Of a stretch of DNA of 38,166 bases, positions 43 through 7,277 are shown in pieces. Numbering within the stretch: the first letter of the stretch is position 1; every line of letters begins with the position of its first letter. The DNA comes from Candidatus Nanopelagicales bacterium. GTDB lineage: Bacteria; Actinomycetota; Actinomycetes; S36-B12. The stretch spans positions 1 to 38,166 of the forward strand of contig JAFMHB010000014.1 in the NCBI GenBank assembly GCA_017854795.1. Reading direction: 5' to 3'. A program made the position numbers and the translations under genes. Under the pieces are notes generated by a model. It searched no databases and was not told where the DNA came from. It saw only the letters and a list, made by a program, of their open reading frames with translations.

Positions 43-924
43 AAGAACTCTGGCACGGTCACGCTAGTTGCCGGTCAATCGACTTCGATCGAAAACATTC
101 CAGGAAACAAAACATGCTCAGTAACCGAGGAAGCACCCGAGGAGATTGAAAACTTCACTTGGGGAGATCCAACTTATGAACCGGAGTCCGTGCAAATCAA
201 GTTCAATGAAAAAAAGATCACGGTTACGAACACTATTACTCGCGACCGCGGATCATTGAAAATCATGAAGGAACTCGCCCAAGGGTCAACAGCTTTCGAA
301 GGCGACTTCACAATTGACTATTCCTGCGGACCCGCACCTGAGTTGGAGGGTGCAATCGTTGAAGGTGATGTGACCATCCCTGCAGGCGATTTTGAAGTGG
401 TCAAGATTCCTACCGGTTACACGTGTGTTGTAACTGAGACCGCTTTTCCTTCAGTTCCTGGTTTTGCTTGGACGACACCCTTGATTGCAGGTTCTCCAAC
501 TGATGCGATTGTCGGAGGCGAGGGTGAAGCAAGAGAAGTCACGGTATTGAATCAACTCACTGCAGTACCACCGCCCCCTCCACCTGCTCCAGCACCTGAA
601 CCAGTTCCTGTAGTTGAAGCTGTCACTCCACCAGCAACGGGAACCGAACCTGAAGTCACTCCTGTCCTTCCTGAGACACCTGTGGCACCAGCTCCCGGGA
701 CAGGCGCAGCACCGACAACACCTGTGACGTCGGTTGAACCAGCTCCAGGAACAGGGGTACCCACTTCGGTTAACGCAGGTGAGGGACCAGCTCCCAGCAA
801 CGGGATCTCAATCGCAATGTGGCTCCTAATGATCGCTGCAATCAGCGCCGCAGTTACATGGGGATTAACGCGCTGGACTGATACAGAAGGTGAGACTCAC
901 ATGCACAAGGTTCACATGGATTAA
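1..924 (+). CDS. DUF5979-type cell-surface protein, C-terminal part (5' end outside window)
   Basis: The reading frame is open from base 1, so only the last 307 residues are present; the ATG at 7 lies in a repeat and is not a credible start. Visible order: a Gly-rich MGDGGG repeat, the end of one DUF5979-like beta-sandwich repeat, one complete repeat (about residues 82-185, with conserved features such as FTIDYSCG and IPTGYTC), a Pro/Ala/Thr-rich stalk (about 188-262), then a single membrane helix (about 268-290) with a short tail ending HMHKVHMD. The last 100 residues closely match the end of the next gene, so the two are tandem paralogues. It should be anchored at the cell envelope with the repeats outside. 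There is no LPXTG; LPETP occurs in the stalk but far from the helix. Family assignment comes from repeat similarity by eye; function (adhesion or surface layer) is inference. Confidence 0.8.
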   Translation, partial: GGMGDGGGMGDGGGKNSGTVTLVAGQSTSIENIPGNKTCSVTEEAPEEIENFTWGDPTYEPESVQIKFNEKKITVTNTITRDRGSLKIMKELAQGSTAFEGDFTIDYSCGPAPELEGAIVEGDVTIPAGDFEVVKIPTGYTCVVTETAFPSVPGFAWTTPLIAGSPTDAIVGGEGEAREVTVLNQLTAVPPPPPPAPAPEPVPVVEAVTPPATGTEPEVTPVLPETPVAPAPGTGAAPTTPVTSVEPAPGTGVPTSVNAGEGPAPSNGISIAMWLLMIAAISAAVTWGLTRWTDTEGETHMHKVHMD

Positions 925-968
925 CTAATAGAAAGTACATCGCAAGGCATTAGCGATGGAGAAAAACA

Positions 969-1016
969 TTGAGCCGGTCGTCGCCCTACCTAGGGCCGAC
1001 CGGCTCAATCTTTTGC
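969..1016 (+). terminator. Strong hairpin terminator after the first surface protein gene
   Basis: TTGAGCCGGTCG at 969-980 pairs with CGACCGGCTCAA at 997-1008. The inner arms CCCTA and TAGGG extend the stem, and a short T-rich stretch (TCTTTT) follows. It lies 45 bases after the stop at 924, so the second surface gene probably has its own promoter in 1017-1153. Confidence 0.75.
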
Positions 1017-1153
1017 GCTCACGTGACCAAACATGTCCGTTCAGTCATTTTTGTTTGACCATTCTTGATCAACGATGAACGTGTGTTGTCATGAATATTT
1101 ACTCCACGAAACGAAATTGCATCCGCAAAATAATCGTTCGAATAGGGGAAATC

Positions 1154-4100
1154 ATGAACGTCTCTCGGAAGACTCGAATCGCTGCACGCCAGATCACCGC
1201 ATTCACAACTGCATTTGTGCTGTTGACTGGAATGGTCACTGGCGCGACCGCATCCTTCGCCGACACCGAGCAACCGACAAGTATCACTGAGTCCCCTGCT
1301 GTCGAATCGGAACCACAATCTGAGTCCCCCGAAGTCGAGTCGGACCCCCAAATTGAAGTGCCCGAGGATGAATCCGCATCCCCTGAAGAAAAACCTGAAA
1401 CCGACTCCCAGTCGCCTGACGCTTCAGAAGAGAATCCCGACGCTGCAGAAGAAAATGAAGTGCTTACTACCGATGAGCAGGATTCAGGATTCGGGCCTAG
1501 CTCACAAATTGAAGAAGGCGCTGAGGTCGAGACTCAGATGGTTCAACTCGCATCACCCCAAATTACTGTTGCGAAAACAAGCTACTCGCCCGGTGAGTCG
1601 GTTACCGCTGAAGGTTCCGGTTGGAATCCGAACAGCGAAGTGGAGTTCACTCTAAGTGAATCAAAGGATGGCAAAAAAGCTGAGAAATTGGATTCCCAGA
1701 AGGGGACATCGAGCGATAGTGGATCGGTTGCTGTCACCCTTACGTTGCCCAAAGATTTTATTGGATCATTTCAAATCGATGCAAAGTTTGATGCAAAGAA
1801 GAAGAGCGATGATCAGTCAGCCTCGATCCAAGGGCTCGAAGTAATTTCGTTATCAAAATTGATTCTCACTTCCGACTCACCCGAATACAAACCAGGCAGC
1901 ACCGTGAAATTGGCTGGCGAGGGCTGGGACGGTACTAAGAGGAACGTCAAGATTCAAGTTACCGACAAAGAAGAAAAAGGAAAAGACTTACTTGATGGAC
2001 AAGGATTTGCCAACGTAGACGCCGATGGGAATCTAACTTTTTCCTTCCCACTTCCTGCAGACATTTCTGAATTTGAAGTCACGGCTACAGAGGTTGATGA
2101 TTCCTCTCGACAGGCAACCGTTTTCTTCACCCAGGAATTAGCAGCTGTAGCTGGAACCATCACGGTCAGGAAAGCTGGCATTCGAACAGGTAACACCACA
2201 GCTAACGGCCTAGAAGGAGCGGAGTTTGAAGCTTTCAACGTGGGAAGCAATACAGACACCTCAATTCCTTCAGGTGCCTCGCCAGTTGCCACCTGCACCA
2301 CAGATGTCACAGGTAATTGCGATTTGAGCCTCCCGAGCATCAGTGGCTCTTCCGACAACTTTGTGGTCAAGGAAAAGTCCGCTCCCAGCGGTTGGGTGTT
2401 ATTGGAAAAGTTCAGCACTGGTGATTACCGGGTCAATGTGACAGTGGCCACTGGCGCCACGGTCCAGGTACCTTCTAGTTCACGACGCTGGGCAAATGCG
2501 AAAGATAATCCGCCGTTGCCAGATATATGCGGGCTCAACATCGCACTGCTTTTTGACGAGTCAAACTCGATTAATGACACTGAGTGGGGGCAGATGAAAG
2601 ATGCGGCTAAGTCTTTCGTCGATGCCCTCACGGGGACTCCTTCTCGGGTAGCCATATTCAGTTTCGCTTCCTCAGCTCCCGCAGGAACCACTAGACCGTT
2701 GGCGTCCGTCAGGTCCGTAGCGGATGCAACCACATTAAAGAACACCATTAGCGCGATGTCGCAGCAAGGTGGTGGAACAAACTGGGATGCCGGCCTCTAT
2801 CAGATCGCCCAAAGTTCAGAGAATTATGACGCCGTCCTATTCCTTACTGACGGCAATCCCACTTTCTACGGCAATCCCACTCTCGGATCAGGAAGTTCGA
2901 CGTTACCGCAATACGTCGAAGAAGCCGTTCATTCCGCAAACGCAGTAAAAGCCAAAAGTAACGGGAATGGTGGTGGCACCCGGATCATCGGTGTCGGCAT
3001 TGGTATCGGCGGCACCTCAGCGTTGAACCTTGCCGCAACAACTGGCCCAATTGATGGGTCTGACTACTACACCACGGATTTCGACAATCTTGGCCAAGTT
3101 TTGAAGGACGTTGCTACCAAGTTGTGTGGTGGGACCATTACAGTTGAGAAGCAAATCGGCACGGCCTTTCCCGGCAGCTCAAACTCCGAGTCGAATGGCT
3201 GGCCATTTGCTGGAGTTATCAACTCTGGTGGCGGCGTCATCGATCCGACGTCCGGCAGCACAGTCAACTCAAACGGATTTGATGGACTGCTCCAATTTAA
3301 ATTGTCCGGCGGAACTTGGCCCAAGAACGTCACAGTCACAGAAACTGGCAATGCTCCTGGTCTCGGTGACTTCACTTTCGTTGATGCCAAATGTTCAATT
3401 AACGGCACGAATATAGGAACGCTCAACCAAGCAAATAGGTCAATCACTTTTAGTATGGAACTTGAGGATTCAGCAACCTGTATTTTCTTAAACTCACCCG
3501 ATACTGGAACGATCGAATTATCTAAGGTCTGGACGGGTCAAGGGGGTCAAACAACTCTCCAGATTGGCTCCGCTGCTAACACCTCCAACATCGCTCAAGT
3601 TCAGACCGGAGTCAATGGAGCTGCGCCCCTAACAACTGGCGAAAAGACAGTTCGCGTTGGCACCTTTTACCTATCCGAAGTGGGTGGTCTCGACGAATAC
3701 ACCCAGTCCCTACAGTGCACCTCAAGTGGTTCACCTATCACCACTACTCCAGAAGGTGGAGTACTCGTGGGTAAAGGAAAGGATGTGAAGTGTGTTTTCA
3801 CAAACACCTTTAAAACGGGAACACTGACGATTGAAAAGACCATCAATGCTCCTGCAAGTGCAACTCTCCCAACTTCTTATGCAGTCTCTTATAACTGCGG
3901 GGCCGGATTCACTGGCAACACAACAATCAGTCCGACTAGTTCAGCATTGATCTCAGGAATTCCCAGCGGCAGGACTTGTTCCGTAGCTGAAGATGCGCTC
4001 ACACCAATTCCCGGTTACACATGGGGCACTCCTGCTATTACTCCGGCATCTGTGTCGATTCCGAATTCAGGAAATGCCACGATTACTGTCGCCAACAATT

Positions 4101-4759
4101 TGACCCGTGATCTGGGTTCCTTAGCTATCACGAAAACCCTCGCCGAGGGTTCCGTAGCGTTCACCGATGATTTCACTATCGACTACGCATGCACACCAGC
4201 AAGCGGAGATGAAGCAAGCAAAACGGGGAGCGTCACCATCGCTGCCGGGGAAACAGGAACCATCACCGCGATCCCCACCGGATTCAGCTGCACCATCACC
4301 GAGGACACCCTTCCCACAGCACCCACGGGATTCACCTGGTCAACACCGGTCATCACCGGATCACCCGCACTCATCACCAAAGGTGAAACCACCCCCACCA
4401 GCGTGGAAAACAACCTGACGGCCAACCCGACGCCTCCTCCCCCAATTCCTCCTACGCAAACTCCCGAACCTGTTGTGGCAGTTGAAGTTGCCGTACCACC
4501 CGCTGCGGGGGTTGTGCCTGAGACACCTCCAACTGAGCCAGAGCTACCTATTACGCCAGCGCCAGGAACCGGTGTTGCCCCACCATCGGGCGTACCGACC
4601 GCCGTAAATGCTGGTGACGGACCGACATCCAATGACGGTTTCATGTTGATCATCTGGCTCCTATTGATTGCGACAATCAGCACCGCGGTTACATGGGGAC
4701 TAACTCGCTGGATCGATCCCGAGGAATCGGATCGCGCGGACAAGGTTCACTTCCAGTGA
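1154..4759 (+). CDS. Large multidomain surface protein: vWA, SpaA-like and DUF5979 repeats, C-terminal membrane anchor
   Basis: 1201 residues. The ATG at 1154 is chosen because AGGGG lies at 1144-1148 and it gives a normal signal peptide (basic start, hydrophobic core near residues 15-33, AxA-like site near TASFA); an in-frame ATG at 1091 would add 21 residues without a visible ribosome site. Order: signal peptide; acidic Pro/Glu/Ser linker (about 39-104); two Ig-like modules (about 136-327); a SpaA/Cna-B-like domain (about 334-446); a vWA domain (about 458-660) with MIDAS motif DESNS; an intervening beta region; two DUF5979 repeats (about 889-1090); a Pro-rich stalk; and one membrane helix (about 1163-1184) with a short tail. 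vWA plus Cna-B-like domains are typical of pilus-tip or adhesin proteins of Gram-positives, so adhesion is a reasonable inference. No LPXTG is present although a sortase gene lies downstream. It is the paralogue of the preceding gene. Confidence 0.88.
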   Translation: MNVSRKTRIAARQITAFTTAFVLLTGMVTGATASFADTEQPTSITESPAVESEPQSESPEVESDPQIEVPEDESASPEEKPETDSQSPDASEENPDAAEENEVLTTDEQDSGFGPSSQIEEGAEVETQMVQLASPQITVAKTSYSPGESVTAEGSGWNPNSEVEFTLSESKDGKKAEKLDSQKGTSSDSGSVAVTLTLPKDFIGSFQIDAKFDAKKKSDDQSASIQGLEVISLSKLILTSDSPEYKPGSTVKLAGEGWDGTKRNVKIQVTDKEEKGKDLLDGQGFANVDADGNLTFSFPLPADISEFEVTATEVDDSSRQATVFFTQELAAVAGTITVRKAGIRTGNTTANGLEGAEFEAFNVGSNTDTSIPSGASPVATCTTDVTGNCDLSLPSISGSSDNFVVKEKSAPSGWVLLEKFSTGDYRVNVTVATGATVQVPSSSRRWANAKDNPPLPDICGLNIALLFDESNSINDTEWGQMKDAAKSFVDALTGTPSRVAIFSFASSAPAGTTRPLASVRSVADATTLKNTISAMSQQGGGTNWDAGLYQIAQSSENYDAVLFLTDGNPTFYGNPTLGSGSSTLPQYVEEAVHSANAVKAKSNGNGGGTRIIGVGIGIGGTSALNLAATTGPIDGSDYYTTDFDNLGQVLKDVATKLCGGTITVEKQIGTAFPGSSNSESNGWPFAGVINSGGGVIDPTSGSTVNSNGFDGLLQFKLSGGTWPKNVTVTETGNAPGLGDFTFVDAKCSINGTNIGTLNQANRSITFSMELEDSATCIFLNSPDTGTIELSKVWTGQGGQTTLQIGSAANTSNIAQVQTGVNGAAPLTTGEKTVRVGTFYLSEVGGLDEYTQSLQCTSSGSPITTTPEGGVLVGKGKDVKCVFTNTFKTGTLTIEKTINAPASATLPTSYAVSYNCGAGFTGNTTISPTSSALISGIPSGRTCSVAEDALTPIPGYTWGTPAITPASVSIPNSGNATITVANNLTRDLGSLAITKTLAEGSVAFTDDFTIDYACTPASGDEASKTGSVTIAAGETGTITAIPTGFSCTITEDTLPTAPTGFTWSTPVITGSPALITKGETTPTSVENNLTANPTPPPPIPPTQTPEPVVAVEVAVPPAAGVVPETPPTEPELPITPAPGTGVAPPSGVPTAVNAGDGPTSNDGFMLIIWLLLIATISTAVTWGLTRWIDPEESDRADKVHFQ

Positions 4760-5008: not shown

Positions 5009-5875
5009 ATGGAAAGTAACATTAAGGAATTAGCGGACGGGCAGGTACATTCTGCTCTCCGACAGCCAAGTGTTGAGTCATTTGCGGCCGAGCCGTTGGT
5101 GACCTTCCTGCAGTATCTGCTCAATCTGCCATCCCGATCGGAGATTATCCAGCACTTGGTTCTGCATACATTTTCGAAATTTGAGGCTTGGGGAGCGTGC
5201 ATTGTCCTCAACCAAGAATATGGAGTTCTGGAAACTGCAGGTCAGTACGGATTAGGCCCAGGTTATAAATCGTCTTTGGATGGTCTACGAAGCAGTATCG
5301 CGCTGCAGGTTGAAATAGAACACAAACTGGAAATAGGGAGCACTTCAAGTTACAAGTCTCCATTGGGGCACTCAATCGTTGGGAGTCTGTTCACACCACA
5401 CAATTTCCTTGGATTCATCCAAGTATTTCTCCCCGAATCCAGTGACCATGCAGCGACGCACGACTACATGAGGGCTGTTTGCCTACCGATGAGTCTTATT
5501 GAAGAACTGCATAAGAAGGAATTAGATGTCAGTCATTTTCCCAATACCCACCCATATGCCAATGGCTTTCATCAAAATTCCTATCACGCAGTGCCGAATC
5601 CCAATGGGTTAAAGACCAATAATGCTGAAAGCACTATGTCAGGGTCACCCAATCTCACATCACGCCAGCTCCGAGTCTTGGAATTGATGTCAATAGGTAA
5701 AACGAACGTCGCTATCGCTGAAATAATTGGGTACAGCGAGTCAACTGTTCGACAAGAAACGATGGCCATCTATCGAGTACTTGGTGTTCATGATCGAAAT
5801 GAAGCATGCAAAGTCGCCTACGAACTCGGAATAATCAAGATCTGGCCAGCTCATCTACCGGATCAGGCTTCTTAG
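5009..5875 (+). CDS. LuxR-family transcriptional regulator with GAF-like N-terminal region
   Basis: 288 residues. The start at 5009 follows GAGGGGGAG at 4999-5006; an in-frame ATG at 4979 would add ten residues that themselves encode this ribosome site, so it is disfavoured. The C-terminus (about 214-275) is a LuxR/NarL helix-turn-helix: it opens LTSRQLRVLELMSIGKTN and has the recognition-helix pattern YSESTVRQ. The N-terminal 170 residues look like a GAF-type sensor (the segment around FEAWGACIVLNQEYG and the following GQYGL), with no response-regulator phospho-acceptor recognised. It sits between the surface protein and sortase genes and is 8 bases from the sortase, so it probably controls this locus. 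The ligand is unknown. Confidence 0.85.
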   Translation: MESNIKELADGQVHSALRQPSVESFAAEPLVTFLQYLLNLPSRSEIIQHLVLHTFSKFEAWGACIVLNQEYGVLETAGQYGLGPGYKSSLDGLRSSIALQVEIEHKLEIGSTSSYKSPLGHSIVGSLFTPHNFLGFIQVFLPESSDHAATHDYMRAVCLPMSLIEELHKKELDVSHFPNTHPYANGFHQNSYHAVPNPNGLKTNNAESTMSGSPNLTSRQLRVLELMSIGKTNVAIAEIIGYSESTVRQETMAIYRVLGVHDRNEACKVAYELGIIKIWPAHLPDQAS

Positions 5876-5883
5876 AGGTCACC

Positions 5884-6546
5884 ATGACCAGGCACAAAGC
5901 CATCAGCACGTTGGCAATTTTCCTGTCAACCGCTTTCATTTCGGCGATGTGTATTGTGTTGTTCCAACAGTTGACAGGTAATCAATCGTGGAATGCCAAT
6001 GCCCCTCAGCCCCAAGTTGAAAACCCTGATTTCTCGCTGGGGGGCGGCACGGACGAATGGTCGCACGATTCATTTCCCTTGGACACCTTGAGTGACACGG
6101 CACCACTGCGGATAAAGATTCCTGAGTTGGGTGTCGATAGCAAGGTTGTTCCGGTGGGTATCAATCCTGATCAATCAATGGAGATCCCGTCTAACATCTT
6201 CAATATTGGTTGGTATGAACCAGGCCCATCCCCTGGAGATCCCATTGGCTCTGCGGTATTGGCTGGTCACCGTGATGGAGCCGAAGCCGGCAGAGGCGCC
6301 TTTTATAACCTTGGCGAACTTGATCGTGGTGACGTGATCAAGCTTTCCACGAAAACCAAAAAAATGAAATTTTCGGTTATGCGGACGGAAATATTAGACA
6401 AAGACTCGTTTGCATTGCGTTCGCAGGAGATTTTTGCGTCCGATGGCCCCGGAGTTCTCACCCTCATCACGTGTGGAGGTGACTACGACAGGAGTCGTGG
6501 GGGCTACCAAGCAAACGTAATTGTCACCGCAAAAATGTCAGGCTAG
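5884..6546 (+). CDS. Class F-like sortase
   Basis: 220 residues. The ATG at 5884 is preceded by AGAGG (5874-5878), which overlaps the stop of the regulator, so the two are probably co-transcribed. An N-terminal membrane helix (about residues 9-28) places the enzyme outside the membrane. The catalytic triad is visible: His129 in LAGHRDG, Cys197 in LITCGG and Arg205 in DRSRGGY. The short compact catalytic domain and the LITCGG.YD pattern fit the actinobacterial class F/E group. Sortases cut a C-terminal sorting signal and join the protein to the cell wall or to another protein. The natural substrates should be the two upstream surface proteins, yet neither has LPXTG. Stop codons of this gene and the opposite-strand protease overlap within CTAG (6543-6546). 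Confidence 0.9.
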   Translation: MTRHKAISTLAIFLSTAFISAMCIVLFQQLTGNQSWNANAPQPQVENPDFSLGGGTDEWSHDSFPLDTLSDTAPLRIKIPELGVDSKVVPVGINPDQSMEIPSNIFNIGWYEPGPSPGDPIGSAVLAGHRDGAEAGRGAFYNLGELDRGDVIKLSTKTKKMKFSVMRTEILDKDSFALRSQEIFASDGPGVLTLITCGGDYDRSRGGYQANVIVTAKMSG

Positions 6547-7277
6547 TCAGTAGTGAACGACTCGGTTGCGCAAGCACGTGAGAGTGATTTAACACCGTTG
6601 ATATCGCCCGCACCGAGTGCAACATTTCCTATGACCAGCGGATGCATGATGTTTGCTTCATTGCTTGCATGACCCAGACCTAAAACGTGACCTATTTCGT
6701 GCAGGTACAAGCTTCGAACCAACTTGGGTGAGGATTTTCCGTACTTATCCATAAACTCTTGTTTGATAATTATGGCTCCAGATTGAATTGTTTTCTGGAC
6801 TGGATCAACGCTCGAAGGTAGGCCAAATCCGTAGACCAGCCCCGTGAACAATTTCGACTCAGAACCTGCAACGTAATCGAAATAAATATGACGCGGTGCG
6901 GACGTGTTGCGATTCTTTGGGGTTAGTGTGAAGTCAGTGTCAGAGTAAAAAGTCTCCATTGGACCCGTGAACTCGAATTTCACAAGGGTGTACTTGCTCC
7001 ATTGATCCAGCGCCCATTGAATTCTCTTTTGCTCGCGTAATGATTCCCTGCCGGAAAGTGAACTGGAGTCAAAGGACCATGTGGCCGGGGTAACACAACT
7101 TTCCCAACCTGCACCAACGTACGAGTCGCGCTTGCCCTCAAAAAAGGAACCGAAATCCGATTGCACGCTTATTCCCGATGATTTTTCCACCGCATGTGCA
7201 GTCGGGATAGCAATTACATTGATGGATAGCAGGACTAGAAGAAAGGGCAGAACCGCGATCCGTTTAAAGAAACTCAC
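6543..7277 (-). CDS. Secreted matrixin-like zinc metalloprotease
   Basis: 244 residues with a GTG start. It has an N-terminal signal peptide (basic start, hydrophobic core about 8-25, cleavage near AHA). The zinc site HEIGHVLGLGH places ligands at His193, His197 and His203 with catalytic Glu194, and a Met-turn (NIMHP, Met211) follows, which is the metzincin/matrixin (M10) pattern. Two Cys residues (Cys61 and one near the C-terminus) may form a disulfide. It should be exported and cleave extracellular protein. It is divergent from the trypsin-like gene across a region with three operator-like palindromes, and convergent with the sortase gene, so it may process the surface proteins or environmental protein. 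Substrate is not known. Confidence 0.87.
   Translation of the reverse strand: MSFFKRIAVLPFLLVLLSINVIAIPTAHAVEKSSGISVQSDFGSFFEGKRDSYVGAGWESCVTPATWSFDSSSLSGRESLREQKRIQWALDQWSKYTLVKFEFTGPMETFYSDTDFTLTPKNRNTSAPRHIYFDYVAGSESKLFTGLVYGFGLPSSVDPVQKTIQSGAIIIKQEFMDKYGKSSPKLVRSLYLHEIGHVLGLGHASNEANIMHPLVIGNVALGAGDINGVKSLSRACATESFTTD

Follow-up and report, generated by a model that had tools for sequence, protein, structure and literature searches.

Which signal, if any, does a sortase read when the surface proteins encoded beside it end in the layout of a sorting signal and carry no LPXTG? The question is raised by a gene cluster in the window, the name used here for the whole stretch of DNA that was analyzed, which spans bases 1 to 38,166 of contig C17 (G000:C17) of a 2.36 Mb genome. 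The sortase of this cluster is class F-like; the physiological role of class F enzymes has been described as unknown, and a 2026 study of Actinoplanes missouriensis, whose four class F genes were all deleted, observed no phenotype and restricted its substrate search to LPXTG-type and LAXTG patterns (PMC13251363). A sequence-only reading of the window had suggested either that residues of VNAG type are the recognition site of the sortase or that the proteins simply stay in the membrane. We consider it highly probable that P-x-x-V-N-A-G-x-G is the sorting signal of the two surface proteins, read by the class F-like sortase of the cluster for transfer to the cell wall. The case is built from the motif and its layout, its association with class F sortases in neighborhoods and in genomes, its covariation with the enzyme tree, and the family match of the sortase.

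The Surface-Protein Cluster

The genes of the cluster are arranged in the order protein 1, protein 2, LuxR-type regulator, sortase, and convergent matrixin. Surface protein 1 (1–924, + strand; 305 aa from the first ATG at 7) is an open reading frame with Pfam DUF5979 repeats, a Pro-rich stalk and a predicted Ala-type sorting signal; it is truncated at the N-terminus because the contig begins at window base 1, and the possibility of a frameshifted gene was rejected, the protein being cut by the contig start alone. Surface protein 2 (1091–4759, + strand; 1222 aa) has a signal peptide, a VWA domain, DUF5979 repeats, a Pro-rich stalk and a predicted Ala-type sorting signal. The succession of stalk, motif, helix and tail described in the sequence-only reading was borne out in both proteins. 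The motif is PTSVNAGEGP in protein 1 (760–789, + strand; tail profile match, E 2.6e-13) and PTAVNAGDGP in protein 2 (4595–4624, + strand; E 2.1e-14), with cleavage proposed between Ala and Gly in each; it is followed by one hydrophobic C-terminal helix recognized by translation and hydropathy (ISIAMWLLMIAAISAAVTWGL at 805–867 and FMLIIWLLLIATISTAVTWGL at 4640–4702, both + strand) and then by 18–19 residues. As had also been stated, no LPXTG precedes the helix; indeed, L[PA]x[TSA]G (LPXTG/LAXTG) is absent from the entire length of both proteins. Over their final 56 codons the two genes have diverged at 38 codon positions (14 synonymous, 24 not) with the motif retained, so neither end is a fresh copy of the other. 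The post-helix tails of both proteins begin with one Arg and are then rather acidic overall, in contrast to the basic tails of most relatives' proteins, and this acidity counts against the reading preferred here.

The sequence-only reading had placed the sortase next to both proteins. It does lie downstream of them, but beyond the interval 742–4700 quoted for the group and separated from protein 2 by the LuxR-type gene (5009–5875, + strand; Pfam GerE; start after a GGGGGAG site), a separation that counts against the proposed pairing. The helix-turn-helix sequence of this regulator, STVRQETMAIYR, also occurs at related class F loci (L059, L079), and the protein may be devoted to regulating the surface cluster. 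Elsewhere, in several genera, genes for an ECF-like sigma factor and an anti-sigma-like protein come after the pair of a DUF4397 protein and a class F sortase (L066, L065, L076, L003). The secreted matrixin (M10) metalloprotease (6543–7277, − strand; Pfam Peptidase_M10) is convergent with the sortase, and seven loci of this family (the window, L059, L062, L068, L075, L077, and L274) have a matrixin (HExGHxxGxxH) as neighbor of the class F sortase. This recurrent pairing may reflect a common function of the two enzymes at the cell surface; we know of no established link between them.

The Sortase and Its Active Site

The sortase gene lies in an open frame from 5806 on the + strand and is best started at 5884, preceded by AGAGGT (5884–6546); the product has one N-terminal helix and matches Pfam Sortase and NF033748. 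The class F-like assignment of the sequence-only reading held, in that NF033748 is the top-scoring sortase class (E 5.2e-36), though at 123.6 bits the enzyme scores below the curated cut-off of 166, which counts against the reading preferred here; the term class F-like is used because class F scores best; the enzyme falls in a clade beside members above the cut-off. An AlphaFold model built from 8 sequences has a mean pLDDT of 62 and is weak around His155 and the active site; with this weak model, Foldseek retrieved PDB sortases at E about 1e-8, the best of them from classes A, C, D, and E.

Active-site residues, numbered from 5806, were compared across 125 class F loci drawn from relatives and from 48 genomes that represent about 30 families. 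The sequence-only reading had reported an intact His-Cys-Arg. His155 (6268–6270, + strand) and Cys223 (6472–6474, + strand) are indeed kept, being conserved in 121 and 122 of the 125 sortases, respectively; the Arg did not stand, as its column is occupied by Asn237 (6514–6516, + strand) and R229 and R231 fall in variable columns (33/125 and 16/125). Asn fills the Asn237 column, which corresponds in the HMMER alignment to the catalytic Arg of class A, in 119 of the 125 enzymes (aligned segments DRIIV in class A vs. DNVVV in class F), and no column near the domain end of these 125 sortases holds a conserved Arg. His-Cys-Arg, with the catalytic Arg in strand β8, has been stated for all sortases (PMC13257024). 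In a related class F enzyme encoded by a Planococcus plasmid, that column is occupied by Arg (Y-EERLVV), and the neighbor of this enzyme ends in MPETGMGG, which is nearer to LPXTG. Since a published model has the Arg of the sortase facing the carbonyl of P3 (PMC5148588), Asn in this column may be linked to a P3 residue other than Pro; the link is not strict, because at a Rhodococcus plasmid locus an Asn enzyme accompanies HPETGAGG.

Tails in Class F Neighborhoods

A first peptide-pattern scan of genome contigs yielded 7 loci only. The neighborhoods of the 125 class F loci were compared at the level of open reading frames, because codon-based gene calling had missed several low-GC neighbors; frames were taken as tail-shaped if they ended in a C-terminal helix with positive residues, and as adjoining if they lay within 1.2 kb on the same strand. 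The pattern [VI]x[TA]Gx[GSA], which was refined on part of the data in which it was counted, occurred in 59 of 109 adjoining tail-shaped frames, vs. 3/61 on the same strand and 3/77 on the opposite strand beyond 3 kb (6/138 together; Fisher p about 8e-20); two of the three distant same-strand matches are protein 1 of the window and a tandem paralogue in L059. The frame that bears the motif is almost always the gene directly upstream of the sortase. At the gene level, the strict motif was found in 31 of 53 adjacent genes vs. 1.7 expected from shuffling, and an LPXTG-like motif in 1 of the 53 vs. 2.4 expected, no commoner than chance. The exact PTxVNAG form recurs as PTAVNAGDGSS (L067) and PTSVNAGNSG (L208). 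The VNAG residues represent one version of a proposed general signal, (P/G)-x-x-V-x-(T/A)-G-x-G.

The 38 motif-bearing neighbors form 14 BLAST clusters, with DUF4397, CHRD or no Pfam domain; as these clusters are unrelated, it is the tail and not the body that the neighbors have in common. Four named plasmid loci, opened after the other tests, all had a related tail on the gene just upstream (4/4). Two of these four tails have Pro rather than Val at P3, which counts against the general signal, as does the existence of some class F loci that have no recognizable partner. In L079 and L145 the upstream frame stops directly past the motif (SIPAGGGAAEVIR and GGVATGGGTVVP, respectively) with no helix; these neighbors may reflect either assembly frame errors or signals that lack a helix.

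The Tail and Class F Sortases Across Genomes

The only other sortase in the genome of the window (on C20) is also of class F, 34% identical over the alignment, and lies directly downstream of a DUF4397 protein that ends in GGVPAGGG, a helix and RLNRSRA. A profile of 20 tails, used because single-tail BLAST across relatives gave only weak chance matches, found exactly three strong tails in this genome, all at its two sortase loci. A third own-genome match, at C37, was rejected on reading, as no surface-protein tail is present there.

The check proposed in the sequence-only reading, whether tail and class F sortase occur together, was strongly positive, and the two adjoin at dozens of loci in many families. 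Near relatives of the genome include Candidatus Nanopelagicales and other uncultured Actinomycetes. Among 57 relatives, the tail (E < 1e-5) was detected in 19 of the 19 genomes with a full class F sortase and in 1 of the 38 without; the positives are partly built in, because the profile drew on several of these genomes, and the 37 negatives are not. The one exception (G015) has a class F fragment, LISCGGYYDKNNGGYQDNVVV, that runs off the contig end. Class F enzymes are present in 176 of 297 sampled Actinomycetes genomes. Of the 297, the Ala-type profile matched 18, 16 of them class F positive; the others are G015 and G321. The match in G321 stops 11 bases short of a contig end, so that any sortase downstream of it would be lost, and none was found elsewhere in that genome. 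In two genomes outside the profile (G206, G230), Ala-type matches stand directly before class F sortases. Orphan Ala-type tails were also seen away from any sortase (L276, L275, L277, L278, L273), only in class F genomes; they are likely further substrates, served in trans.

Thr and Ala Forms on the Sortase Tree

A tree was built from 79 sortases with an assigned signal. A branch with a value of 99 splits a Thr clade (V(D/E)TG-type; Thr in 31 of 39) from an Ala clade (V(P/N/A)AG-type; Ala in 36 of 40), and the window sortase falls in the Ala clade. The P1 residue requires 6 changes on this tree vs. 24.6 with shuffled labels (0 of 500 shuffles as low), a covariation that supports recognition and does not prove it, because related rows inflate clustering and the signals were partly assigned by eye. 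The DUF4397 cluster holds both Thr and Ala forms, each matching the clade of its enzyme.

These results bear on whether the proteins are processed at all. If they were not, the helix would be a permanent membrane anchor and the motif a product of the common ancestry of two tandem paralogues; the window proteins are paralogues, with DUF5979 repeats and tail in common, and their post-helix tails are not very basic. Yet in many families ectodomains with no relation to one another carry the motif next to a class F sortase, and the P1 residue of the motif tracks the enzyme tree. We regard this explanation, the second possibility of the sequence-only reading, as improbable, as it fails to explain the adjacency, the co-occurrence in genomes or the covariation. 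Those same three lines of evidence lend good support to the other possibility, that VNAG is a candidate sortase recognition site.

A further question is whether the sortase reads the signal or is a mere neighbor, the reader being another enzyme such as an intramembrane sorting protease, rhomboid-like or otherwise. In other bacteria, rhombosortases recognize Gly-rich signals ahead of a helix, and this precedent gives the idea its appeal; against it, the tail is constantly accompanied by a class F sortase, in neighborhoods and in genomes, and the P1 residue covaries with that sortase, so that we hold another enzyme to be quite improbable. Least probable of all is that the PAPGTG stalk repeats are the true sorting motif, with VNAG as a linker: PAPGTG does stand near the C-terminus of both window proteins, its APGTG resembles LPXTG, and sortases cut T|G, but it sits farther from the helix than VNAG and is not seen in the relatives' tails listed, in which VxAGxG was.

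Proposed Mechanism and Implications

Judged from sequence, the PTxVNAGxG tag is probably a cutting and anchoring signal for class F sortases that replaces LPXTG. In the proposed scheme, P-x-x-V-N-A-G-x-G would be followed by a helix that halts in the membrane and by the short tail; Cys223 of the sortase (5884–6546) would attack the Ala carbonyl of V-N-A|G, the cut being expected between Ala and Gly by analogy with LPXT|G; the helix would be released and the surface protein passed to an amine of the cell wall. Asn237 would take the place of the usual catalytic Arg. The window pattern would be the Ala type, and V-(D/E)-T-G the Thr type, of a general signal for class F enzymes, V-x-(T/A)-G-x-G.

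More broadly, we lean toward the view that actinobacterial class F enzymes form a distinct specificity system, one that reads V-x-(T/A)-G-x-G, in which the choice of Thr or Ala is set by the enzyme clade, Asn replaces a supposedly universal catalytic Arg, and the Ala half (VNAG/VPAG) appears uncatalogued. If V-x-(T/A)-G-x-G is the class F signal, searches with LPXTG and LAXTG patterns have missed substrates. Class F substrates could then mostly be read from the neighboring gene, which would give a testable list for many class F enzymes, could supply a new orthogonal sortase tag, and would put to the test whether a sortase can function without its Arg.

Comparison with Known Sorting Systems

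The nearest known system is that of NF033748 and NF058571 ("GVDTG sorting domain," NCBIfam). Thr-type tails beside class F sortases match NF058571 above its cut-off, so the Thr half of the signal is already catalogued, and GVDTG tails are carried by the gene adjoining a class F sortase in, e.g., G322, G270, and G104. No paper that connects VXTG or GVDTG with class F enzymes was found in the openly accessible literature covered; one Gardnerella paper contains the words "sortase" and "VXTG." The window shares with this system the enzyme family, the V-x-x-G-x-G frame and the position ahead of the helix. It differs in belonging to the Ala-type clade (VNAG/VPAG), in a conserved Pro three residues ahead of Val, in an enzyme under the NF033748 cut-off, and in tails that give no GVDTG match: none of ten Ala-type proteins, both window proteins included, matches NF058571 even at E 10, and filing the window tails under GVDTG_CTERM was rejected on that ground. 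The Ala half (VNAG/VPAG) appears to be a new form of this recently catalogued signal.

Class E, represented by Streptomyces SrtE1 (LAXTG; PMC5148588), is likewise an actinobacterial system with a changed P3 followed by helix and tail. Its signal, however, has Leu at P4 and Thr at P1 and its enzyme keeps Arg329 in the active site (PMC5148588), whereas the window has Ser, Ala or Gly at P4, Val at P3, Ala at P1 and Asn in the Arg column. Within class F itself, the Cutibacterium acnes enzyme is reported to read LPXTG (PMC13257024, citing Di Girolamo, 2019), a report that counts against the reading preferred here. With class A and LPXTG, the window enzyme shares the sortase fold, His and Cys, and cleavage is expected before Gly in both; the window differs in having proteins that lack LPXTG and an enzyme with Asn rather than Arg. 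Relative to LPXTG, the window signal changes P3 from Pro to Val and P1 from Thr to Ala, keeps Gly at P1′ and adds a downstream Gly.
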